Shown: piece after piece, positions 5,020 through 21,095 of the stretch
Position numbering within the stretch: position 1 is the stretch's first letter
Layout: the number at the start of each line of letters is the position of its first letter
NCBI GenBank assembly: GCA_913009825.1
Contig: CAJVYQ010000037.1
Coordinates: 1-47,086, forward strand
DNA from: an uncultured Deferribacteres bacterium
Lineage (GTDB): Bacteria > Zhuqueibacterota > JdFR-76 > DREG01
Length of the DNA: 47,086 nt
Direction of reading: 5' to 3'
Program-made: the position numbers and the translations under genes
The notes under the pieces: model-generated
Told to the model about the DNA's origin: nothing
Database searches by the model: none
What the model saw: only the letters and a program-made list of their open reading frames with translations

Positions 5020-5766
5020 ATGAAAATTACAAACAGAGAATACTTTTCAGAATATTATAATCAAATTGGTCATGGATTAAGGTTGTCCATCGACAGTTTT
5101 GATTTTAGTGACCGGCATATCAATTTAGGATATTCTACTCAAGCATCTGCTGTCTATTCTTCAAATATAGAGGGCAATAGTATAGATTTAAATTCTTTCA
5201 TGAATTACAAACTTTCCCGCGAAATATTTAAACCAACGAAAGAAATTGAGGAAATTGAAAATCTTATCACAGCATATAAACTTGCTCAAAATAATAAATT
5301 AAGTGAATCCAACTTTTTGGAATGTCATAGGATTTTATCAAAAACATTATTAATTAAAAACAAAAGGGGAAAATATCGCACTGAAAAAGTTGGGGTTTTT
5401 GGCGAGACAGGTTTAGTATATTTAGCTATCGAACCTGAATTCATTCAGGAGCGTATGAAAATATTCTTTCAAAATATTGAAATATTATTAGAAAGAGGAT
5501 TATCATTAGAGGAGAATTTTTATTTTGCCTCAATAATACATTTAATATTTGTTCATATTCATCCATTCAGAGATGGAAACGGACGGGCTGCCCGCTTATT
5601 AGAAAAATGGTTCTTGACTGGAAAACTCAATGATCAATATTGGAAAATTCCATCAGAAAAATATTATGCAAATATAAATCTTGGCGTAAATTATTATGAG
5701 TTAAATTATGCTAATTGTATACCCTTTTTACTTATGCTGCCGAACAGCATCAAAAGTAAACTGTAA
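5020..5766 (+). CDS. Fic family protein (probable AMP transferase) with inhibitory motif
   Basis: The 248-residue product carries the full Fic active-site motif HPFRDGNGRAAR at residues 181-192, with His181 catalytic and the anion-binding GNGR loop intact. An N-terminal motif SSNIEGN (S47, E51, G52) matches the [S/T]xxxE[G/N] inhibitory helix of class II Fic proteins, so this should be an auto-inhibited enzyme transferring AMP (or a related moiety) to a target protein. It is cytosolic, with no signal or membrane segment. The target is unknown. The gene is AT-rich, has no clear Shine-Dalgarno sequence, and is the only plus-strand gene in the first 26 kb. Its stop codon is one base from a family 2 repeat end that also lies upstream in the same orientation, suggesting acquisition. 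Confidence 0.92.
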   Translation: MKITNREYFSEYYNQIGHGLRLSIDSFDFSDRHINLGYSTQASAVYSSNIEGNSIDLNSFMNYKLSREIFKPTKEIEEIENLITAYKLAQNNKLSESNFLECHRILSKTLLIKNKRGKYRTEKVGVFGETGLVYLAIEPEFIQERMKIFFQNIEILLERGLSLEENFYFASIIHLIFVHIHPFRDGNGRAARLLEKWFLTGKLNDQYWKIPSEKYYANINLGVNYYELNYANCIPFLLMLPNSIKSKL

Positions 5767-7908: not shown

Positions 7909-7940
7909 CAAAAAAAACCGGCATTATTCAACGCCGGTTT
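7909..7940 (-). terminator. Intrinsic terminator of the DUF4097-like gene
   Basis: On the minus strand AAACCGGC, a ten-base loop and GCCGGTTT form an 8-bp stem followed by a run of T residues, 43 bases beyond the stop codon at 7983. This is a textbook rho-independent terminator. Confidence 0.85.
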
Positions 7941-7982
7941 ATTAATTCAGACAATATTCGTTGCATGCAAGTTAAAAAGAAA

Positions 7983-8981
7983 CTATTTCACCTTCCGGAG
8001 GCTGATATTGCCATCGTTCGTACGAATCCTGATTTTCCCTTTTCCGCCATACATTTCCCCTGATTGGTAGTGTTTTCTTTTTGCAAAATTATCCACATCC
8101 GGCACATTGACATGTATCCGGCCGCCGTCGGAATCCAGCCAGAACCGCGCGGAAATTTCTGCTTCAAAATCGAGTGAAACATCGCCGTCATCGGCTACAA
8201 TATCAAAATCAACACGACCGGTTTTTAGCAAATCCAGATCGACATCTGCATCTGAACAGCGGATATCCAACCTTTCTGCCCGGACTTTGCGCAACTGAAT
8301 ATCGCCGTCATTCGTTTCAATGTCAAAATCACCTGTCGATCTGCGAATAGTCACTTCACCATCCCCACTGTTAATCCGGCAATGAGGCATGTCGCAATTT
8401 GCCAGAAAAATATCCCCGTCATCATTCCTTATTGTAAAAGAGCCGCTTAATTCGGAGACGCGTATGGTGCCGTCTTCTGCTCTTATTTTTGTTTTATCCG
8501 CGGCGATATTACTAAGATCAACATTGCCGTCATCCAGAGTTAAAAAGATATTTCCCTGCCGGTCATCGATCTCCACATCTCCATCATCTCCGGTAAATTC
8601 CAGTTCCACATATTTCGGCGCCCGGATTTTATAGGTATACTCATATCGTCTTGAATATTGAACACCGATTGAAATACCGCTCCCCCGTTCTTTTCCGATT
8701 ACATACACTTTTTCACCGTTTTGACGAAATTCGACATCGAAATCATGTCTGTTCCCAATGCCAATCGATTTATATTCCAACCGGTAACGAACGGTAACAT
8801 CGATGACATCTTTATCCCAGGGGAGAACCGTCACGTCGCCGTCGCCATGGTGAAGAATCAATACAGCCCCTTCCCCGACATCGAAACTTTTGTGAAAATC
8901 TTTCTTTATTTCCCGGGCGGCGATTGAACTAAAAATAAAAAACAAAGAGAAGAAAACCACACTTACCATTTTCTTTGCCAT
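7983..8981 (-). CDS. Secreted DUF4097-like beta-repeat protein
   Basis: A 332-residue exported protein. The N-terminal signal peptide (MAKKMVSVVFFSLFFIFSSIAA) is followed by repeating short beta-strand units of the form DDGDVEIDDRQGNI, LDDGNVDLSNI, NDDGDIFLANC, NDGDIQLRKV and NDGNISLRKVK. This is the hallmark of the DUF4097 family, predicted to fold as a right-handed beta helix. Function in the family is not established; 'putative adhesin' is the usual label. The start has a strong AAAGGAGG site 7 nt upstream. Single-gene unit with its own terminator. Confidence 0.85.
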   Translation of the reverse strand: MAKKMVSVVFFSLFFIFSSIAAREIKKDFHKSFDVGEGAVLILHHGDGDVTVLPWDKDVIDVTVRYRLEYKSIGIGNRHDFDVEFRQNGEKVYVIGKERGSGISIGVQYSRRYEYTYKIRAPKYVELEFTGDDGDVEIDDRQGNIFLTLDDGNVDLSNIAADKTKIRAEDGTIRVSELSGSFTIRNDDGDIFLANCDMPHCRINSGDGEVTIRRSTGDFDIETNDGDIQLRKVRAERLDIRCSDADVDLDLLKTGRVDFDIVADDGDVSLDFEAEISARFWLDSDGGRIHVNVPDVDNFAKRKHYQSGEMYGGKGKIRIRTNDGNISLRKVK

Positions 8982-9366
8982 TTTACCAAACCTCCTTTAT
9001 TTGATAAAAAGTAACTGCTTAGCCTACGAAACACACGAAATACTCGAAAGGTTCTATTGATTTTTTATTGGGCTACCTGAGTATTTAGGCTAAAAATTAA
9101 TTTTTACAGATAGATAGAATACGATAATTATTTTGGAGTGTTTCAAAAAAAACTGCGCCGACAAGACTTAGCGCTCTAATTTTCGCTACTCAGAAGGTCC
9201 ACAAAACATACGAAGAACACGAAAGACACGATGTCATTGGACTACAGTGGCGTTTTCAATTGCCCGTCGATGCCCTTGAACGAAAAGTAACAAAACAGCC
9301 GTTATTCCTGTAATCAAGAGAACTCTTTTGGGGTTATGTTGCCCATCGCAAAAAACTAACCGGAAA
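8982..9366. repeat. Intergenic region with family 3 repeat copies
   Basis: 9016-9091 carries CGAAACACACGAAATACTCGAAAGG and, further on, GGGCTACCTGAGTATTTAGGC, which match 23524-23620, 32881-32996 and 46943-47055. A second, partial copy (ACGAAGAACACGAAAGACACGA) sits near 9207. No gene seen. Confidence 0.5.
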
Positions 9367-10986
9367 TTACTGAGTATTGGGAATTTCTACAATCAGCATC
9401 GATATTTTTTTCTGAAGCATAGCTTGTGAAAAACGATATTTTAATTCTACATCAGAAGCGGAAAGACTCACCGTACCGACAGATTCAATTCCACATGCAT
9501 GGGATATTTTCTGAATATTTAATCCAGGTGCAGGCTCGCCTAAAATATTTTTATTCACACCCGGATGCGGTTGTCCGCCCGAAGTGAGCGCACTGTGATT
9601 ATCCAAAACAACCAGGAGAAGACTGCTGTTATTGTGCACGGCATTACAAATAGCCGGAATGGTGCTGTGAAAAAATCCGGAATCACCAATCAAAGCAACC
9701 GGTTTTAATCCTGATGAGGCATTGCTTATACCGTCGGCAACGGCAACGGCAGAACCGATGGCATATTTTGCATCCAGGCGGTTTGCAACGGTAACAAGAC
9801 AACCCGGGTCCCCAACAACAACCAATTTTTGACCCAATCCCTCAGCAGCTTCTTCCAATAATGTTAATACCTGATCGTAGCGACAATCTCCGCAATGACT
9901 CTCTTTGTAGGGTTTTTCTTTTTCCTCATCTTCCGGAAGGTAGACTTTTTCAGATGTAAAATCAGGCAGAAATGAAGAGAGCGCCTGTTGAATCTGCCAG
10001 CGAAAAAGTTCTCCTTCCCTGGGCAGATGACCGGTTCGCTTTCCGGCGATGGTTCCTGTGTACCGGTGTTCCTGAGCGATACTCTTCAAACCGATTTCAA
10101 CAAAAGGTTCATTTTCTTCTAAAACCAAAATATTTTGACAACCTCCCAAAAAATCAACGATCATTTTTTCCGGTAATGGAAATAGCGTCGATAATTTTAA
10201 CAGGGATAATTCAGGTGGAATTTGTCCGCCAAACAGATCAAATAGTTTTTTGAATGTAAAACCGGCGGCAACGATACCGGTTTTACCGTTACCAATTATC
10301 CGGTTGAATGGCGAGCGATTTGCCCAATCCTCAAAATCCGCCAGACGTTGATGCAGGTTTTTATGTTTCTGTTGCACATTTTTGGGAACCGGAACGAAGC
10401 GGAGCGACTCCCGCTTATATTCAAAATCCGGTTTTTTGTTTAACTTTATGCTGATTTCAACCGGTTCGGCCTGCTGGCTGAAGCTGCGGGTTTCCCGAAT
10501 GATAACCGGAATATGGTACTTTTCAGAAAGAGAGAATGCGTCCGCCATCATCTGGTAAGCTTCCGCCGGAGAAGCCGGTTCCATCAGCGGCATTTCCAAC
10601 ATGGGCGCCAACAAACGGGTATCCTGCTCGTTCTGCGAACCGTAGCCGCCGGGATCATCGCCGAGTAAAATTACCAGACCGCCATTCAGCGGGGTAAGAT
10701 TCAGCGCCATCATTGGATCCAACATCACATTCATTCCCACACTTTTCACACACACGAGTGCTCGTTTGCCAACAATGGATGCGCCGATGGCCATTTCCAG
10801 GGCCACCCGTTCATTGCTGCACCACTCTATATAAATGCCGGATTTTTTTCCAACCCTGGCTAAATATTCAATTGTTCCGGAACTGGGTGAACCGGGATAC
10901 CCGGTAACCAACTTCACATTGCCGGCTAAGGCTCCGTAAGCAAATGCCTGGTCGCTATTCAATTCCATGTGAGAATTTGTGAGCAT
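9367..10986 (-). CDS. Indolepyruvate ferredoxin oxidoreductase alpha-like TPP enzyme lacking the ferredoxin domain
   Basis: The 539-residue protein matches the layout of IorA: an N-terminal pyrimidine-binding domain (NSDQAFAYGALAGNVKLVTGYPGSPSSG), a central transketolase C-like region, and a C-terminal TPP-binding domain with GDSGFFHS and the metal-binding region ending VLDNHSALTSGGQPHPG. IorA normally oxidises arylpyruvates to aryl-acetyl-CoA with IorB and passes electrons to its own C-terminal [4Fe-4S] domain. Here the chain stops at VEIPNTQ after the TPP domain, with no CxxCxxC cluster tail, and no iorB is adjacent. A CGDC motif sits just before the TPP domain. Electron transfer would need a partner protein, or the reaction differs. 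Neither candidate start (MLTNSH or MELNSD, six codons later) has a good SD. Confidence 0.82.
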   Translation of the reverse strand: MLTNSHMELNSDQAFAYGALAGNVKLVTGYPGSPSSGTIEYLARVGKKSGIYIEWCSNERVALEMAIGASIVGKRALVCVKSVGMNVMLDPMMALNLTPLNGGLVILLGDDPGGYGSQNEQDTRLLAPMLEMPLMEPASPAEAYQMMADAFSLSEKYHIPVIIRETRSFSQQAEPVEISIKLNKKPDFEYKRESLRFVPVPKNVQQKHKNLHQRLADFEDWANRSPFNRIIGNGKTGIVAAGFTFKKLFDLFGGQIPPELSLLKLSTLFPLPEKMIVDFLGGCQNILVLEENEPFVEIGLKSIAQEHRYTGTIAGKRTGHLPREGELFRWQIQQALSSFLPDFTSEKVYLPEDEEKEKPYKESHCGDCRYDQVLTLLEEAAEGLGQKLVVVGDPGCLVTVANRLDAKYAIGSAVAVADGISNASSGLKPVALIGDSGFFHSTIPAICNAVHNNSSLLLVVLDNHSALTSGGQPHPGVNKNILGEPAPGLNIQKISHACGIESVGTVSLSASDVELKYRFSQAMLQKKISMLIVEIPNTQ

Positions 10987-13543: not shown

Positions 13544-14197
13544 TCATGGAGAATAAATAGGAACAAGTTTATTTAAATTTGGATGAAAAACCAGAATCGG
13601 AGTTGAACGTCCTTCCGGTGCAAAATTAAAGTAAATAGCTTTCATATCTTTATCAGAATAATATTCCCAAAAATATTTATAATTATCCATAGCTTCTTCT
13701 TTTGAAGAACCAAAACTTTCATATTCTTCTTCAGCGAAATATTTACTCACATTCTTAAATAGTGGGATTCTTTTATCACTTGGTGAAATTTTTCTACTTT
13801 AAAATTAAGTATCTCATTTAAATACCATTTCTTTTTACAATCCAAATATCCTTCACAAGATCTTACATATAACTTATCATAGAAAAATGTGTTAATCTAC
13901 GCTTCATTTGAATATTTTTGCAGAAGAGTGTCTGCGCCTGATAATAAAAAGAAAGTCCAGTTTACTGGTTTTTTCCCAATCTTTAACTTTAAGGTAATAT
14001 TTAATAATTTCGTTCTCTAGTCTACCAGATAAATCAATGGATTTTACTATGGTTGTATCTAAAACATATTTTTGATTTAGGGAAATTGATTTCTGCAAAT
14101 CTGAATTTGTCTGACCTACTTGATTTTCAGACAACTTGTTCTGAGAATTACATGAAATAAATACAAAAAAGAAAACGAGAGCTTTATAACTTTTCAT
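13544..14197 (-). pseudogene. Broken lipoprotein gene (two compensating frameshifts and one stop)
   Basis: It starts as MKSYKALVFFFVFISCNSQ, a lipoprotein signal with lipobox Cys. After VKDWEK the frame changes in an A6 run (about 13973-13978). The second frame reads PVNWTFFLLSGADTLLQKYS, then NEA and a TAG stop, and continues INTFFYDKLYVRSCEGYLDC. At a second A-run (about 13805) the frame returns to the original one: ISPSDKRIPLFKNVSKYFAE ... NLNKLVPIYSP and stop. The intact ancestor would be about 217 residues; no family is recognised. Taken separately, the two open pieces (13904-14197 and 13544-13750) would look like unrelated small hypothetical genes. Two indels plus an in-frame stop favour true decay over sequencing error. 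Confidence 0.65.
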
Positions 14198-14230
14198 ATG
14201 TTATTTATCCAAAAAATTAAACTCGTAAAT

Positions 14231-14305
14231 GGCACTTAACAACTAAGCTCAGGTGCCGCGATGAAGCGCAGCGGAGTAGTAATCACCTACAGCTACAGCG
14301 CCTTT
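14231..14305 (-). other. Degenerate integron attC-like site
   Basis: On the minus strand a stem AGCT-GT-AGGTG / CACCT-G-AGCT encloses CCGCTGCGCTTCATCGCGG, typical of attC terminal structures. Five bases later comes a canonical R' box GTTAAGT (14240-14234). The expected R'' ending in AAC is not found on the far side. The box marks the start of the cassette holding the broken lipoprotein gene, whose ATG follows about 35 bases on. Confidence 0.5.
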
Positions 14306-14324
14306 TTCGGCAATCAATATATTG

Positions 14325-16352
14325 CTATCCATGAAATTTGTAAATTTTAGGATAAAATTTATATGAAGAACACAACCAAACCCATTGTCTACATTGTCTT
14401 TCTAAACGTATAACTTTCAGGGGGGCTTCGATGAACATCACATGAAGCTGATTCTTTTTTTGGATTACTAATGCTAAAACATACGATTTACCCTTTTCTC
14501 TTGCTGTTGCCTCCTCATTACTTGTAAGGGTGAAATGTTGGCCTTCATATTTTAATGATTTTACTTCAACGCAAATAATTTCACCATTTGGATTTATCGC
14601 TTCAATATCATATCCAACGTTTTGCCTACTAACATCTTTAGCACTCCAACCGTCTGAATTCAAAATTTCTAGTACTTGTTGTTCTGCACTCCTCCATTTT
14701 ACTAAACTAATTCTTTTCGAGGGTACAAGTTCAGTAGAACTCTCTTTATTATTTATATCGATAACTTCTTTAACTTCTCTTTTCTTTGACGGAACTATCT
14801 CTTGCGCAATTTCATTATCAGTAATAGCACCAACTAATCTCGATAACTCAGAAGATATACCAATCTTTTCTGTTATGATATCAATAAAATTATCATCTAG
14901 CTTATTTCTTTTACTAACAACCTCTGATAATGATAAATTCTCATTATTAACCGACCAAATTTTCCAATCTTTATCAAGTCTTGTTCGGGAAATCTGTTTG
15001 GTAGAAACTTGCTTGGTTATATGCGCGACGACCTCAGCAGCCCCTTGGGTAGTTAATTGATTCTTCTTTAACTCAGGAGATAGCATTTCTATAGTCAATT
15101 CATGTACACCTAAAAATTTTAACAAAGAATCTAACCCTTCAGTCTCCCCAATATCTCTAGAAGGTATGTTTATCTTTGCATTATTAGCAAGCTTTGTGCT
15201 ATCATTAGGATTTAGCCAACTAGGACGGCGATAAAAATTATTAAATTGACCTTTGGATGCTGTCTCTATTGATTCCATCAACTGTTTTTTGAAGGATTGC
15301 TTTTGAAGCTTGAGCAAGCGTGGTTCAAATAAAGGAATGAATAGTTCAATTAAGTTGCTTTTCGAAAAATCGTCAGTCCGATCAAGACATGTTTTTAATA
15401 AAACTATATAAAAGTTTGCGATTTTTTCAATGGTCTCTATAGTGATGTCATCTTGTATAACTCTAGTCCTGGAGGGATCAGTGCTAATATTTCCATTAAT
15501 TTTGAAGCTGAATCCGGTCTCTTCTGAAGTTGGAAGAAATGCATGAACTACTGCATCCTTAGGTAAGAGCTTTTTGTATTTTTCACCTTCTTTTTGAACA
15601 GCAATGGAGATGTCCTCGTAATGAAAAACAGTCCAATAGTTTTTGTTATTATTAATCGATAATTCTACTAATGATGAATTTTCATCGATGCTAGTATGGC
15701 CTATCCGATATGTAACAATTGATTTAGACTCAAGTGTTACCTTTTCTATATTTCTGAGAAATAATAAAGACGATGGTTCAAGACTTTCAAATTCACTCTC
15801 CACAAAATTTGCAATTAAATCTGAAAAGACAAAGATAGTATTGTACCCATTTTGGTATAACTGATGTATCATCGGTGATAGTTGTGCCTTTATTTTGGAA
15901 TCTATCTGATGAGGGATTCTGATTAGTGGAACCGAACTCGCACTTGGAATGAGAGATGATGTTAATTCGCGAGAAAAAGTAGCCTCAAGGCTACCACTAA
16001 AAAGATGAATCTGTTTTGCAAAACCAACAACTGATTTGAAACCAATACCTCTAAATCCAATACTTGTCCTACGTTCTTTTTGGGAGGCAGCACTTCGACA
16101 TAAAGCTTCAAAATCTAGAACAGTAAATTTACGTCCATCGTTAGCAACAATTATATGCTGATTTATGCGCTTAATTAGGATACGAACTGACCCAGCATCA
16201 TCTGCATTTTGGAGTAATTCAATAAATGAACGTGAGCTATAACTTTCTGCAATGTATCTTTCTAACCCAGCTAAATCAGATATAAGATTTGGCGAGCCTT
16301 TGGCTTCTTGAATTAATGACTTTCTGACATTATTCAATATTGAATCATTCAT
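14325..16352 (-). CDS. NO VEIN/sacsin-like GHKL ATPase with C-terminal DUF3883-type nuclease-like domain
   Basis: A 675-residue cytosolic protein. The N-terminal GHKL (Hsp90-like) ATPase fold is shown by ELLQNADDA (residues 45-53), ANDG (70-73) and the glycine-rich lid GFRGIGFKSV (99-108), as in sacsin and plant NO VEIN. The C-terminal domain has GYDIEAINPNGEIICVEVKS (about 580-599), the D...ExK pattern of DUF3883/Mrr-like PD-(D/E)xK proteins. This pairing recurs in bacterial genes suspected of acting against foreign DNA; that role is inference. The start at MNDSIL follows the stop of the 16357 gene by four bases, implying translational coupling; no SD is visible. AT-rich, probably the second gene of a two-gene integron cassette. 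Confidence 0.83.
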   Translation of the reverse strand: MNDSILNNVRKSLIQEAKGSPNLISDLAGLERYIAESYSSRSFIELLQNADDAGSVRILIKRINQHIIVANDGRKFTVLDFEALCRSAASQKERRTSIGFRGIGFKSVVGFAKQIHLFSGSLEATFSRELTSSLIPSASSVPLIRIPHQIDSKIKAQLSPMIHQLYQNGYNTIFVFSDLIANFVESEFESLEPSSLLFLRNIEKVTLESKSIVTYRIGHTSIDENSSLVELSINNNKNYWTVFHYEDISIAVQKEGEKYKKLLPKDAVVHAFLPTSEETGFSFKINGNISTDPSRTRVIQDDITIETIEKIANFYIVLLKTCLDRTDDFSKSNLIELFIPLFEPRLLKLQKQSFKKQLMESIETASKGQFNNFYRRPSWLNPNDSTKLANNAKINIPSRDIGETEGLDSLLKFLGVHELTIEMLSPELKKNQLTTQGAAEVVAHITKQVSTKQISRTRLDKDWKIWSVNNENLSLSEVVSKRNKLDDNFIDIITEKIGISSELSRLVGAITDNEIAQEIVPSKKREVKEVIDINNKESSTELVPSKRISLVKWRSAEQQVLEILNSDGWSAKDVSRQNVGYDIEAINPNGEIICVEVKSLKYEGQHFTLTSNEEATAREKGKSYVLALVIQKKNQLHVMFIEAPLKVIRLERQCRQWVWLCSSYKFYPKIYKFHG

Positions 16353-16356
16353 GTTA

Positions 16357-16704
16357 TTAACATTTTTTAGGATATACGCGAATTTTAGCTGGCTTAGAAG
16401 ATACATCTGAAATTGTTATATCAAGAGACTGTAAAGCAAAAAAATCTTCTTTTTCTATGTAGTCTGTTGTAGTTCCAATGACTTTACCATCTCGGTCAAA
16501 TGCTGTCGCAACAATTTCAATGTCGTCATCTATTCCTGTTCCGTTTACAGCATGTATTTCACCGTAGATCTCAACATCTGGCATATAGTCAGAGTCTTCA
16601 TAAAAAGATATTTGAGCATTTAAACCCTCAATAGTGATACCAAATTTTTCTTCCATAATTTCAAGTCGCTCAATATTTTCAATTTGTTCTTTTTTATTAG
16701 CCAT
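16357..16704 (-). CDS. Small beta-rich protein of unknown function coupled to the GHKL ATPase
   Basis: A 115-residue protein with a strong GGAGG site 5 nt before its ATG. A short helical start (MANKKEQIENIERLEIMEEK) is followed by alternating beta strands (DVEIYGEIHAVN, DDIEIVATAFDRDGKVIGTT, LQSLDITI) with the layout of FxLYD/immunoglobulin-like sandwich domains. No signal peptide or membrane segment. The stop overlaps the start region of the ATPase gene, so the two are likely made together and may work as a pair. No family assigned. Confidence 0.75.
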   Translation of the reverse strand: MANKKEQIENIERLEIMEEKFGITIEGLNAQISFYEDSDYMPDVEIYGEIHAVNGTGIDDDIEIVATAFDRDGKVIGTTTDYIEKEDFFALQSLDITISDVSSKPAKIRVYPKKC

Positions 16705-17151
16705 AAAGACCTCCTTACTGATAATCTTTACAAAGTTTTAAAAAAATTAACACATTCATAAATGTCGTGGATGAAATAAAAAAAATATTACACATCAACG
16801 CGTGTTTTCACTCCGTTTTGTTTCGCCGTTTTCATCGGACAGAAGGATCTGTGCTCAATCATCATCAATTAACTCGTGTTCATCATCTATATGCAACTCT
16901 ATTGAACTAATGTGAAAATTTGATTTAATGTATTTTGAAATATTTAGCAGCTAGTCCATTCATAACTTCCTGATTTATTTTGAACTCAGCACACTTTAGC
17001 AGAATCACATTCCTCCATTTTAGCTTCGGATTTTACTCTTCTTTTTTTATCCTCAATATAATGCAGAGTGGTAATAACGCTGTCATTATTTTAGGACATT
17101 TATATTGTTTCTTCAATGAGTTAATCATAATTATACTTCCTACTTCCAACC
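16705..17151 (-). other. Cassette interval with a probable decayed small ORF
   Basis: Within this 447-base gap, 17008 to 16855 on the minus strand reads ILLKCAEFKINQEVMNGLAA and KYF, then after a frame change near TTTCAAAATACA continues YIKSNFHISSIELHIDDEHE and LIDDD-stop. The acidic end looks like a genuine protein terminus. A GGAGG lies just before a GTG at 17008, but spacing is short. No other gene or clear attC is visible here, so a decayed cassette is a reasonable but weak reading. Confidence 0.3.
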
Positions 17152-17247
17152 AAACGACGTTGAGATAACCTGCGCTGCCACAAATTAAACTTTCACTTAG
17201 CAACGAACCCAACGCGTGGCAGCGTCAGGTTGATTGATTTGTTGGGC
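17152..17247 (-). other. Integron attC site 3
   Basis: On the minus strand the R'' box GCCCAAC (17247-17241) comes five bases after the kinase stop codon. It is followed by L'' AACCTGACGCTGCCAC (17231-17216) and, after a 34-base variable loop, L' GTGGCAGCGCAGGTT (17181-17167). The arms pair perfectly apart from a single extrahelical A, the hallmark of attC. R'' with its preceding CT (CTGCCCAAC) is the exact complement of the cassette start GTTGGGCAG at 18750. The outer R' box near 17160-17152 (GTCGTTTGG) departs from GTTRRRY. Confidence 0.85.
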
Positions 17248-17251
17248 AGCT

Positions 17252-18274
17252 CTATTCCAATGTTGTATCTGCGATATACTGATACATGTGTCTAATTGCA
17301 TCTGTGAGGCTACTATGCCTTCTGTATTCGGATCGAATACGACGACCGTTCACAGAAACTGTAACAGTATTATTAGTAAAATCAATCGCGCAACGATGTA
17401 GTTTACCCGCACGACAATAGCCTTGCCATTCATCATCCGCCAGACGAATCCAGTCGATATTGAAACGAAGCCTATCAAGATGCTGTCCAAATGCCTGTGC
17501 AGTGTAAAATCTCTTTGCAATATCCGCGTTGCATGCCTTTCTGACTATTCGACGGAGTTTCTCAGGAATATACTCTTCGAAACCGATTCTCTTAATAAGT
17601 GTTCCATTCAGCATGTGGTTTGATAAATTAGGAACGGCATTGATCACTGCGCGCCAATCCGCAATATTTGATATAGCGCGAAAGAGTGTAACTCCCATTG
17701 CAAAGACATCAGTCTGCTCAGTTGTAGCATTGGTGCGAAAGTACTCTGGTGGCAAATGAGGTCTGTAGCCTTTTGCTGAGCCGATCAAAGAAAGTCCTGC
17801 ATCTGTGGCAAGGCCAAAATCTGACAGCTTTGGTATATTTGGAGATAATAAAATGTTCCCCGGTTTAACATCCCGATGAAGGAACCCTTGCGAATGGGCG
17901 TGTTCTAACCCAAGGAGCGCCCCTCGGACGTAATCAACAGATTCGCGGATGGACACCCAGCGTGATGCAAGGGCAGCCTGAAGAGATCCCTCTGGAATAT
18001 ATTCCAAATCAAGAACTATTCTATTTGTACCGTTTACGGGGAAGATGTTTGCTTCGTTGATTGCTACGATATGCTTATGTTGGCACTTATTTAATATCTG
18101 CGCTTCTTCTAGATTCTGCATAAAATTAGAGGGACCGGTCGACAATATAACCTTAATTGCCTTTTCAGTACCAAGAGCTCTATCAAACACATGAAATACT
18201 TGCCCGAAGTTGCCGGAACCGAGAGGGCTTATAATCTGGTATTTGTCAATCGTTGTCGGTATAGGTGTTATCAT
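17252..18274 (-). CDS. Serine/threonine protein kinase
   Basis: A 340-residue soluble Hanks-type kinase. It shows the glycine loop LGSGNFGQVF (18-27), the ATP-orienting lysine in AIKVI (K41), the catalytic loop HRDVKPGN (133-140), DFG (152-154) and a PPEYF version of the APE motif (175-179). It should phosphorylate Ser/Thr on an unknown partner. There is no transmembrane helix or sensor such as PASTA; residues 270-340 form a short C-terminal region with no recognised domain. Its ATG overlaps the stop of the upstream gene in ATGA (18271-18274), so the two are translationally coupled. Both genes lie in one integron cassette bounded by GTTGGGCAG (18750) and CTGCCCAAC (17249). Confidence 0.93.
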   Translation of the reverse strand: MITPIPTTIDKYQIISPLGSGNFGQVFHVFDRALGTEKAIKVILSTGPSNFMQNLEEAQILNKCQHKHIVAINEANIFPVNGTNRIVLDLEYIPEGSLQAALASRWVSIRESVDYVRGALLGLEHAHSQGFLHRDVKPGNILLSPNIPKLSDFGLATDAGLSLIGSAKGYRPHLPPEYFRTNATTEQTDVFAMGVTLFRAISNIADWRAVINAVPNLSNHMLNGTLIKRIGFEEYIPEKLRRIVRKACNADIAKRFYTAQAFGQHLDRLRFNIDWIRLADDEWQGYCRAGKLHRCAIDFTNNTVTVSVNGRRIRSEYRRHSSLTDAIRHMYQYIADTTLE

Positions 18275-18723
18275 GGCAGTTCAAACCAAGCTGCGAGAAC
18301 AGAATGCTTCTGGTTCTTGTCCCAATAAGGAGGGTTTGAACCAAAAACAGTATCGCAATGGGCATATAGGTCTGTTCCTCTCGGGAGCCCGAGACGAGAT
18401 GCAACATAATTGCCAGAAACATAGGAAGTGATGGGTAGGTTACGTCTATGTGCAAGAAGGTTGAGAATACCGAAAGGAAACGAGGACGTGAAAAGTTGAT
18501 TCTTCTTTGGCGCAAGTGTTAGCCTATACGCTATGCGCTCAGGAGCAGATTGATTAATAATCAAATTGAACTGAGACTCATACCAATCCATTAATGCGGG
18601 TACGTCGGTTGTCGCCGGAGTTACAAGTCTATCCTTTACGACTAACACAGGTGCGATCTTTGTCCCCTCAAGAACCGAATAGCGAAACTGCCCTGTAGCA
18701 ATATGTACACCAAGTACTTTCAT
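18271..18723 (-). CDS. Small RNase H/actin-fold-like protein coupled to the kinase
   Basis: 150 residues with an N-terminal MKVLGVHIATGQFRYSVLEG strand-turn-strand typical of RNase H-like or ASKHA folds (RuvC, YqgF, DUF3010-like proteins), then a middle helix region (PALMDWYESQFNLIINQSAP) and a conserved-looking LTLAPKKNQLF. The first strand lacks the usual acidic catalytic residue (His7 stands where Asp would be), so nuclease activity is doubtful. A GGAG site 11 nt upstream fits the start, 27 bases after the cassette boundary. It overlaps the kinase start by four bases; it could be the kinase's substrate or regulator (inference). Confidence 0.7.
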   Translation of the reverse strand: MKVLGVHIATGQFRYSVLEGTKIAPVLVVKDRLVTPATTDVPALMDWYESQFNLIINQSAPERIAYRLTLAPKKNQLFTSSFPFGILNLLAHRRNLPITSYVSGNYVASRLGLPRGTDLYAHCDTVFGSNPPYWDKNQKHSVLAAWFELP

Positions 18724-18743
18724 AATAGTATTTTCTCCTTCCT

Positions 18744-18842
18744 GCCCAACGGTGCAGGTTAAGCTGATTTAAACGCTCAACAAATTAGCAAAATACAAAG
18801 AAACAGCACGCGTTTAAATTCATCTTGAACCTGGTGTTAGCA
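18744..18842 (-). other. Integron attC site 2
   Basis: On the minus strand R'' TGCTAAC (18842-18836) comes four bases after the stop of the 18846 gene. The arms CAGGTTCAAGATGAATTTAA and, on the other side, TTTAAATCAGCTTAACCTG pair over about 22 bases with two extrahelical bases and one mismatch around a variable loop. The site ends with a canonical R' GTTGGGC (18750-18744). R'' is the exact complement of this cassette's start GTTAGCA (19872). The stem is homologous to attC site 1. Confidence 0.9.
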
Positions 18843-18845
18843 TTG

Positions 18846-19835
18846 CTAAATTAAAGATACCCAACTCGTTTTTAATTGTGCAATTTCAGTTATATCCTTT
18901 AATGCTCCAACGATCCCTCCATAAGGGAAAAAATTCAATCCAATATTTATTGTTGCATTGAGGGGTGTTGTTAATCTTGATTTTAATTCTTCAACTAATT
19001 CCTTATGGAACAATTTTAATATTAAATTTTCAATGTCCCTTTTATCACTGATACTAGGGAGATTTATTAAAACTTCATTTGTAATATTTTCAATCATCCT
19101 TCTATAATCACGTCCGGCTTCAGATTGCCTTATTTTATGTATTTTTTCCCAAGATTCATTTGTGTAATCAGGATGATCAAGTGAAATCCAAGTTTTATAA
19201 AAGAAGTCCTTTAATTCGGGTTTCCAAATACTTTTAATTTGCTGATTCTTCCATTCAATTACTTTTGAAATATTATTATCTACCAAGAAAGGTAAATTCA
19301 AACGATAGGCAAGCAAAGAATCAAAATATAATGATTTTAAAATAAAATTTTGAACGAATGAATTTTCTGGTAGGATTTTTTTCAATTCTAAATTATTTTT
19401 ATCTTTAAAAATTTCTTTATTTGCAAGGCGCGTGTCGTTTTGGTCTAAATCATTACTTATCCAAATAAAATATTCTTCATTTAAGAGACCAGCGTCAAAG
19501 ATTATTGGGTAATAGTCAATTTCATAAGATGCTATCATATTACCACTAAGAACAGGGTGCTGAGTATTTGATCCTTCTGGGCTCATAAATAAAGTCATTT
19601 CCTGCCCTGGGGTAAAGTAATTTATCTTTTCTCGGTCTGTTGAAATTTTATTTGCAGGAATCAAGAAATCAAATGATCCATTCTCAACAATACTACATGA
19701 ATATTTTGCGTCTTGAATGATTATTTCATCATAAAGAAGTAAATAATTTTTTATCCTTCTTTCAAGAGACTTCCGCGTCTCGGGACCAGTAAACCATGCA
19801 GCGTTTGATTTAAGAGGTAAAAAAAATCTACTCAT
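18846..19835 (-). CDS. Cassette protein of unknown function
   Basis: A 329-residue AT-rich gene, sole occupant of its cassette. It begins MSRFFLPLKSNAAWFTGPET, 37 bases after the cassette boundary, has no signal peptide, and is helical in the second half (residues 185-300). A mildly hydrophobic glycine-containing stretch near the C-terminus (LNATINIGLNFFPYGGIVGA) could touch a membrane. I recognise no family. The N-terminal 60 residues (ERRIKNYLLLYDEIIIQDAK) read like proteins that sense or bind a ligand, but nothing specific can be claimed. Its cassette neighbours suggest a defence or stress context. Confidence 0.75.
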   Translation of the reverse strand: MSRFFLPLKSNAAWFTGPETRKSLERRIKNYLLLYDEIIIQDAKYSCSIVENGSFDFLIPANKISTDREKINYFTPGQEMTLFMSPEGSNTQHPVLSGNMIASYEIDYYPIIFDAGLLNEEYFIWISNDLDQNDTRLANKEIFKDKNNLELKKILPENSFVQNFILKSLYFDSLLAYRLNLPFLVDNNISKVIEWKNQQIKSIWKPELKDFFYKTWISLDHPDYTNESWEKIHKIRQSEAGRDYRRMIENITNEVLINLPSISDKRDIENLILKLFHKELVEELKSRLTTPLNATINIGLNFFPYGGIVGALKDITEIAQLKTSWVSLI

Positions 19836-19865
19836 TTATTTTTAACCTTTTGAATGTTAATACAA

Positions 19866-19999
19866 TGCTAACGGACAATGTTAAGCTGATTTAAACAGCG
19901 GCAGTGAACTTGATAGAAACCACAGAAATTGAACCAAAACCCACTGAAAAAACAAAAAAACAACGGCTGTTTAAATTCAGCTTGAACAAATGGTTATAC
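19866..19999 (-). other. Integron attC site 1
   Basis: On the minus strand R'' GTATAAC (19999-19993) and a six-base spacer lead into TTCAAGCTGAATTTAAACAG. After a variable loop the return arm GCTGTTTAAATCAGCTTAA pairs with it, leaving two extrahelical bases. R' is GTTAGCA (19872-19866). R'' with its preceding CC (CCGTATAAC) exactly complements the cassette start GTTATACGG at 21104. Stem sequence and length (134 bases in all) match attC site 2 closely. Confidence 0.9.
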
Positions 20000-20031
20000 G
20001 GCCAAATCTACCGATTGGCACTTTATTAAAA

Positions 20032-20976
20032 TCATTGACCGAATTCAGATTCAATTTGTGCTTTTGCTTGAAGTAATTTATCACGTATTTGACTCGTATG
20101 ACCTAAACCTTCTATAACCTTTTCCAATTTATTTAAAGTTGAACCAATTTTAAGTTCAATAGGCATAATTTCCGTGTTTTTATAATCTCCTTTAAAGTTA
20201 AGTAATCTGTCCTTTATAAGATTAATTTCAAAGTGTTCCAACATCGCAGCTGCTCTCCAGGGCACTCGGGTAGTTTTCCCTGAACTTGCCTCAATAATGA
20301 GTGCATCCATAGCTAAAATGTTTTTATAAGCTATTTCTGTCATTCGTTTCATAAATTTTCCAAAATATGCAGCTACATGACATAAGAATGCAATTTCTTC
20401 ATCAGTGTGTGAGATATTATCAATACTTAGGGTTATCTCTAAAAATTCTTCGAATTTAATTAAAACCTCTTTGCTTGATTTCCAAAGATGGCAAGCCTTT
20501 CTTAGATTTTGCTTTACTGCTTGTTCATCTATTGGGGAGTCTGCTTCATCGAGATCTAAAGCTAAAGCATCTTTTAAAAAAACTTTCAGTTTACTTTCCC
20601 CTCCCAGTTTATCTTCATATTCAAAATGCCGGATTCCATGAAGATCGAAAGGAACGTGGCTATCCTTTTTCTTAAGTAGAATAACATTTCTTTTTAACGC
20701 ATGGCAAATGCCAAGTTCATAATAAACATTAGGATTACTACCTGTCAGGTCAGCAATGATAACTTTTGCTTTCTTGATATAGTCAAAAATTTCAAACATG
20801 ATAGGTGTTGATGCAAAATTTTGATCCGCCCTCATACATCGAAAACCGAGCTCTTCAAGGATAGGATTTATGGCGTGGTGATAAACTGCGTCATATTTTT
20901 CATCAAATGGCATAATAACGAAACAGAGATCATCCTCTATAGGCACTTTTCTGTTTAAATATTCAAAAATGTTCAT
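20032..20976 (-). CDS. Protein with deoxyribosyltransferase/TIR-like N-terminal domain
   Basis: 314 residues. The first 120 form a Rossmann-like domain: CFVIMPFDEKYDAVYHHAIN (18-37), ADLTGSNPNVYYELGICHAL (75-94) and KRNVILLKKKD. The NPNVxYELG motif with its Glu (E87) is shared by nucleoside 2-deoxyribosyltransferase-like and TIR-like domains that cleave N-glycosidic bonds of nucleotides or NAD. Residues about 125-314 are helical with no recognised domain and may sense a trigger. Such fusions occur in anti-phage genes; activity here is inference. The protein is soluble. It is the first cassette downstream of the array promoter. Confidence 0.82.
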   Translation of the reverse strand: MNIFEYLNRKVPIEDDLCFVIMPFDEKYDAVYHHAINPILEELGFRCMRADQNFASTPIMFEIFDYIKKAKVIIADLTGSNPNVYYELGICHALKRNVILLKKKDSHVPFDLHGIRHFEYEDKLGGESKLKVFLKDALALDLDEADSPIDEQAVKQNLRKACHLWKSSKEVLIKFEEFLEITLSIDNISHTDEEIAFLCHVAAYFGKFMKRMTEIAYKNILAMDALIIEASSGKTTRVPWRAAAMLEHFEINLIKDRLLNFKGDYKNTEIMPIELKIGSTLNKLEKVIEGLGHTSQIRDKLLQAKAQIESEFGQ

Positions 20977-21095
20977 AAGTTGTCTCTCCCTATAATTGAT
21001 TTAAATGACATTCAGAATATAAATATTCAAGATAATTATTAGAATGACCAAGCAAACATCATTTTATTATGTAGAAATAATCCAAATACTCTAAG

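Follow-up and report, generated by a model that had tools for sequence, protein, structure and literature searches.

Stk of phage 933W is a prophage kinase responsible for the exclusion of phage HK97 and has been known since the 2000s. Among described systems, the stk region of 933W and related phages is closest to the gene pair discussed here. In the parts of the published work drawn on here, Stk is described as a tyrosine kinase that causes abortive infection and excludes HK97 (PMC6356687), that shows low activity before HK97 infection and is activated on infection (PMC3681748), and that stable lysogens express from pRM (PMC3430580). In those same parts Stk is handled as a single gene and a partner is unmentioned. 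The immunity region of phage phi24B is equated here with that of 933W solely from the note in its record (similar to bacteriophage 933W) and from the gene name; the gene order in this record is cro, cI, an ORF for a RuvC-like protein of 153 amino acids (1484-1942) and stk (1939-2985). The 153-residue ORF carries no annotation in the phi24B record; in other phage records it appears as hypothetical or as 'RuvC-like Holliday junction resolvase', and one RefSeq entry reads 'RuvC family protein'. On one E. coli chromosome the order is cI, a DUF3024 gene, the RuvC-like gene and the kinase gene. The prophage form of the pair occurs in 223 of 5,426 complete E. coli genomes (ca. 4%). In the open-licence literature no paper was found that covers the RuvC-like partner.

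The window analysed here, a stretch of 47,086 nucleotides from an uncultured Deferribacteres bacterium, harbors a homologous pair of genes, located in an integron cassette. Its kinase has the same length as that of the 933W/phi24B region and has the C-terminal domain in common with it, and the homologous RuvC-like gene lies directly 5' of the kinase gene with a short overlap, as in the phage. Unlike the phage genes, the pair is neither downstream of cI nor under control of cI and pRM, and its RuvC-like protein carries H7 and H141 at positions where the phi24B type has R and E. The lambdoid form of the pair corresponds to the stk region that Stx phages of the 933W type carry. An earlier note on this DNA knew of no described system with such a composition; that statement is not supported. 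The 933W-type stk region contains the same two genes, and Stk itself has been published (PMC6356687, PMC3681748, as far as drawn on here).

The integron cassette and its surroundings

The whole cassette, as delimited by attC borders, spans positions 17149-18750 and is read from the minus strand. Gene 1 (18271-18723, minus strand) encodes the RuvC-fold protein of 150 amino acids, and gene 2 (17252-18274, minus strand), located downstream, encodes a Hanks-type Ser/Thr (or dual-specificity) kinase of 340 amino acids that is homologous to 933W-type Stk. Both ORFs are intact and overlap by 4 nucleotides, the ATGA at 18271-18274 (minus strand), where gene 1 stops and gene 2 starts, an arrangement indicative of translational coupling. 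No further gene lies between the two attC sites. This agrees, down to the coordinates, with the earlier note, which had described an intact Hanks kinase and a 150-residue protein overlapping by ATGA and forming one cassette.

The attC site of the preceding cassette (18744-18842, 99 nt) provides the R' sequence (GTTGGGC on the minus strand, GCCCAAC at 18744 on the plus strand) that opens the kinase cassette. The attC site of the kinase cassette itself (17149-17247, 99 nt) starts right after the kinase stop codon with R'' (GCCCAAC on the minus strand, GTTGGGC at 17241 on the plus strand), which is exactly complementary to the opening R'. Each of these 7-mers occurs once in the 7.9-kb array, and the preceding cassette, which holds an ORF of 329 amino acids, obeys the same reciprocal rule with GTTAGCA and TGCTAAC. 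According to folding, both attC sites form long imperfect stems. The assignment rests on folding together with the reciprocal 7-mers, the site at 18744 not being decided by folding energy alone, and a search for attC sites that allowed a single bulge recovered no site. An integron integrase (TIGR02249, 471 bits) is encoded in the same genome on another contig (C88), not adjoining the array. The locus thus shows what defines an integron cassette, i.e. attC with R'' and R' and a stem at both ends and IntI in the genome. A Shine-Dalgarno-like sequence, AGGAAGGAG, can be read 5' of gene 1 (18735-18743, minus strand), immediately past the cassette junction. The distance from the junction to the start codon of gene 1 is 21 nt, which leaves little space for a promoter of the cassette's own, and expression probably relies on read-through.

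The region 13900-21000 is a cassette array without an integrase on its own contig, the sole strong IntI of the genome being near the end of contig C88. A neighbouring cassette region (14325-16704, minus strand) contains two ORFs of 115 and 693 amino acids that overlap by 50 nt. The 693-residue product is an ATPase of the sacsin type, carries a NO VEIN domain at its C-terminus and matches the PADLOC TmtA models at 9e-57; this ORF pair is likely another defence unit. The 329-residue ORF of the preceding cassette (18846-19835, minus strand) has no family match in Pfam, NCBIfam or PADLOC and has a GC content of 0.30, compared to 0.44 in the kinase cassette. Further on, a 314-residue protein (20032-20976, minus strand) is TIR-like in its N-terminal half (PADLOC TIR effector, 7e-16; Pfam CAP12-PCTIR_TIR, 0.001) and has no solved relative. 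Judged from these predicted products, the cassettes adjoining the pair look defensive. Integrons have been described as banks of anti-phage cassettes, and the small defence units carried as cassettes by chromosomal and mobile integrons that are cited in the portion of that work used here resemble the present pair in this respect (PMC12409362). Elsewhere in the window, at 5020-5766 (plus strand), a stand-alone gene of the Fic/DOC family is found (Pfam, 1.6e-14).

The kinase and the RuvC-like protein

The kinase domain, residues 12-262 (17489-18241, minus strand), is recognised by Pfam Pkinase at 1.3e-37. All catalytic residues are kept: the glycine loop (G19-V26), the VAIK lysine (K41), E57, the HRD..N motif (H133-N140), DFG (D152-G154), PPE (P175-E177) and D189. 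Residues ca. 271-340 (17255-17464, minus strand) form a C-terminal accessory domain of about 70 residues which is confidently predicted to consist of beta strands and one helix. This domain has no match in Pfam but is common to kinases that have a RuvC-like partner, and its residues W275, W283 and R311 are conserved in the alignment. A match to phrog_2361 (E = 2.3e-45) covers residues 7-309. By these motifs and alignments, the product of gene 2 is a Hanks kinase that is complete and carries an accessory domain at its C-terminus.

The kinase domain is also related to those of PD-T4-6, MAD6 of the MADS system, PglW of BREX and the PASTA kinases (StkP/PknB). Unlike the similarity to 933W-type Stk, the match to these proteins is restricted to the kinase domain and lies far under the curated cut-offs where these exist. 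The score against MAD6 was 119 bits at an NCBIfam cut-off of 460, and in case of PD-T4-6 the kinase domain alone was matched (best value 5e-37), no better than by a generic kinase.

Used as a single query, the 150-residue protein gave no match in Pfam, NCBIfam, PADLOC or plasmids, and its own match to a RuvC profile is weak (E = 1.4); RuvC was reached solely by a profile built from several partner clades. Such a profile of 9 partners matched RuvC structures, with E = 1.5e-7 over the full length for 7w8d and E = 0.01 for 1hjr. Aligning 15 partners with 9 RuvC sequences in hhalign gave a probability of 98.5% (E = 2e-15). An AlphaFold2 model of the 150-residue protein (pLDDT 86.8, pTM 0.84) retrieved RuvC at all of ranks 1-12 in Foldseek, with TM scores of ca. 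0.80. The VIA comparison with RuvC (Z 18.2, 148 residues, rmsd 2.5) was better than with every other RNase H-fold family. Profiles and model thus indicate that the protein has an RNase H fold and is a member of the RuvC resolvase branch. The earlier note had proposed an RNase H/ASKHA-like start, of which the RNase H part stands. The ASKHA (sugar kinase/actin) assignment is rejected; Ppx/GppA and sugar kinases ranked far below RuvC.

Whereas the fold and full-length sequence homology relate the protein to RuvC Holliday junction resolvase, its catalytic tetrad is replaced. The D-E-D-D residues of RuvC, intact in 9 out of 9 RuvC controls, correspond to H-R-N-H in the window protein (H7, R67, N, H141). 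In the 15 partners compared, R, H or A occupies the first position, R or K invariably the second, and E, D or H the last; neither the position-7 aspartate nor the tetrad glutamate is retained in any of them. With the tetrad replaced, the standard two-metal nuclease site is absent, and gene 1 encodes a RuvC-family protein without the catalytic tetrad. The window clade has H7/R67/N/H141 and most other partners R/R/x/E, which shows that the pocket is not strictly conserved. There are known cases of RuvC-like domains that are inactive yet bind nucleic acid; further down the VIA structural list of the 150-residue protein stand TEFM, Spt6 and Tex.

The gene context also differs from that of the resolvase. 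The partner profile additionally recovers genuine ruvC genes in the phylum of the window. At each of the 18 RuvC control loci (L061-L078) a ruvA- or ruvB-like gene lies nearby and a kinase gene does not, whereas no ruvA or ruvB neighbour is found at the pair loci, where a kinase gene adjoins.

Linkage of the two genes in other genomes

A scan of 84,980 species genomes yielded two relatives of the small gene, both with a kinase homologue directly 3'. The overlapping pair of SZUA-421 has 75% identity to the small protein and 73% to the kinase; for the overlapping pair of Accumulibacter the values are 46% and 49%. The SZUA-421 pair (L003) adjoins a region of tRNA-like repeat peptide (5144-5401) and a large serine recombinase (7918-9501), and its surroundings are probably a genomic island. 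The next-best plasmid kinases (ca. 30% identity) likewise have a small gene directly 5' in Methylocystis, Novosphingobium, Klebsiella, E. coli, Providencia and Mesorhizobium. In the plasmids of Methylocystis and Novosphingobium the pair is placed between hsdS and hsdR, and a third type I restriction operon with the pair is present in another genome of the window's phylum, giving three unrelated bacteria with this hsdS-hsdR arrangement (L005, 2516-4053; L006, 2489-4029; L089, 6916-8669). These pairs have the same order as the cassette, the RuvC-like gene followed by the kinase gene, but differ by their position within the restriction operon and by retaining D at the last tetrad position.

The pair is also found in prophage regions of Enterobacteriaceae and in an SPbeta-like Bacillus phage. 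Viral scans that used the partner as query gave 55 distinct contigs, and in all 55 the kinase gene follows the partner gene; many are near-identical E. coli prophages, so these are not 55 independent events. The first 38 of these contigs contained 17 distinct small proteins. The kinase gene is intact in 51 contigs and in one is cut by the contig end just inside the gene; in the remaining three (L017, L023 and L111) it is frameshifted behind an intact RuvC-like gene, in L017 and L023 within runs of A. Behind these frameshifts may be selection or phase variation, or else errors of sequencing. No relatives turned up when viral sequences were scanned with the clade of the window or with that of the restriction operons.

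Sequence identity between the window and phi24B is 18% for the RuvC-like protein and 29% for the kinase. The direct hhalign comparison of the window clade with the lambdoid clade alone is weak (probability 4.6), while the link through the restriction-operon clade has a probability of 86; the connection between window and lambdoid forms therefore depends on the clade from restriction operons, on the joint profile and on the kinases. In a mirror-tree analysis of 15 divergent pairs the correlation was r = 0.959, a value not reached in any of 20,000 permutations, which by this measure indicates that the RuvC-like protein and the kinase co-evolve.

The earlier note had suggested that the two genes move together, had proposed to look for the pair elsewhere, and had named absence of the partner beside kinase homologues as evidence against such coupling. 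When 398 sampled genomes of the Accumulibacter phylum were searched with the kinase profile, three matches at E<=1e-45 resulted. Two of these are full-length and accompanied by the partner, while in the third (G475) a different gene, of 168 amino acids, overlaps the kinase start. Among 81 genomes of the window's phylum, the partner is found beside the window kinase and one restriction-operon kinase, and matches to the kinase domain only, mostly long PknB-like kinases, lack it. Kinases matched over their whole length, C-terminal domain included, thus have the partner, and generic PknB-type kinases, matched in the kinase domain only, do not; the outcome that the earlier note had named as refuting did not occur. 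The pair is found again in the immunity regions of phages, in type I restriction operons and in genomic islands. Homologous overlapping pairs in unrelated genomes also mean that the pair is not a chance arrangement. Judged from gene order and homology, it is a translationally coupled unit of prophages, type I restriction operons, islands and the present cassette.

Stk-like kinases preceded by a different small gene were observed both in G475 (L157, 1384-2942) and in Sinorhizobium (L093, 1303-3532). The small gene carries the motif VVxKAS...SAExRGV, resembling RuvC with E changed to K, and its profile match is weak; the Sinorhizobium copy is interrupted by an IS5 element.

Function of the pair

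On balance, we lean towards reading the cassette as a variant, carried by an integron, of the Stk exclusion (abortive infection) module of prophages, the kinase being its effector and the nuclease-dead RuvC protein its sensor or regulator. Since the pair is shared with the immunity regions of Stx phages, whose kinase blocks a rival phage, the RuvC-like partner is probably the sensor or brake of a phage-defence kinase. The kinase would be held quiet in healthy cells. On infection, the RuvC-like protein would engage recombination or replication intermediates of the phage, or a phage DNA-processing protein; its fold, made for branched DNA, would bind without cutting and would act via the kinase, possibly through the C-terminal domain of the latter. 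The kinase would then phosphorylate host proteins, and growth would stop ahead of phage production. Activation on infection and exclusion of HK97 enter this proposal by analogy with the published work on 933W Stk, and at 18% and 29% identity to phi24B the trigger and the targets may differ. Growth arrest by an infection-triggered kinase is favoured by the shared module, the phenotype of one of its members, the placement in restriction operons and the defensive-looking array. A nuclease-dead RuvC fold favours a role in binding: the protein may sense branched DNA or a DNA-processing protein of the phage, or may inhibit the kinase. The phage-sensing role put forward in the earlier note is thus supported as the likeliest function; the observation made there is confirmed and its interpretation supported in part.

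A more general proposal, which we offer tentatively as a possibility, is that the pair is a widespread two-component anti-phage sensor in which a kinase of the Hanks type is activated by the nuclease-dead RuvC protein once the latter recognises branched DNA or recombinases of the phage. The product of HK97 orf41 is reportedly the trigger of Stk. In the HK97 record Gp40 and Gp43 flank erf and a second recombination gene, from which Gp41 would be the Erf recombinase; we treat this assignment as a lead only. If the proposal is true, the pair would be a protein kinase gated by DNA structure, and activation of 933W Stk would be explained.

The kinase may also be a toxin that the RuvC-like protein binds and inhibits without any sensing, phage damage or takeover then freeing the kinase, an alternative that is the main rival and that we consider rather unlikely. 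The layout is the usual one of antitoxin-toxin operons, a small gene first, a larger one second and a start-stop overlap, but the likeness to type II toxin-antitoxin systems is limited to this order and coupling, and no DNA-binding autoregulator domain of a classical type II antitoxin was identified in the partner. The three viral contigs with a frameshifted kinase gene fit inhibition of a toxic kinase in that the converse was not seen, among contigs that were found via the partner; two of the three frameshifts, however, fall within A runs and could be artefacts of sequencing. Moreover, 933W Stk is little active in uninfected cells according to the part of PMC3681748 used here, whether or not through the partner.

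Improbable, in our judgement, is a lysogeny or host-regulation module that has no role in defence and is spread by mobile elements for other reasons. It would fit the prophage copies, which are under cI control and expressed in lysogens (PMC3430580, in the part drawn on). Against it stand the pairs inside type I restriction operons, the location of the present pair in an integron array with TIR-like and sacsin/NOV-like genes close by, and the exclusion phenotype published for the 933W kinase (PMC6356687, in the part drawn on). Least credible, and very improbable, is that the RuvC-like protein is the effector of the kinase and, once phosphorylated, cuts or blocks phage DNA with an alternative active site: the RuvC fold, the conserved pairing and the single acid (E or D) kept at the last tetrad position in some clades would suit it, but loss of the position-7 aspartate and of the glutamate, the latter always to R or K, in all 15 partners leaves the two-metal RuvC site unable to form.

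As an exclusion module, the cassette pair would be a divergent, cassette-borne variant of a known system in which the second component is present but had been overlooked. The 933W-type Stk has a conserved and co-evolving partner across phage, restriction-operon, island and integron contexts, and this partner is a resolvase in which other residues, mostly basic, stand in place of the cutting ones. It offers a concrete and cheap test of the off-state of the kinase and of what the kinase senses, and with it a pseudo-nuclease/kinase pair would join the list of immune modules.
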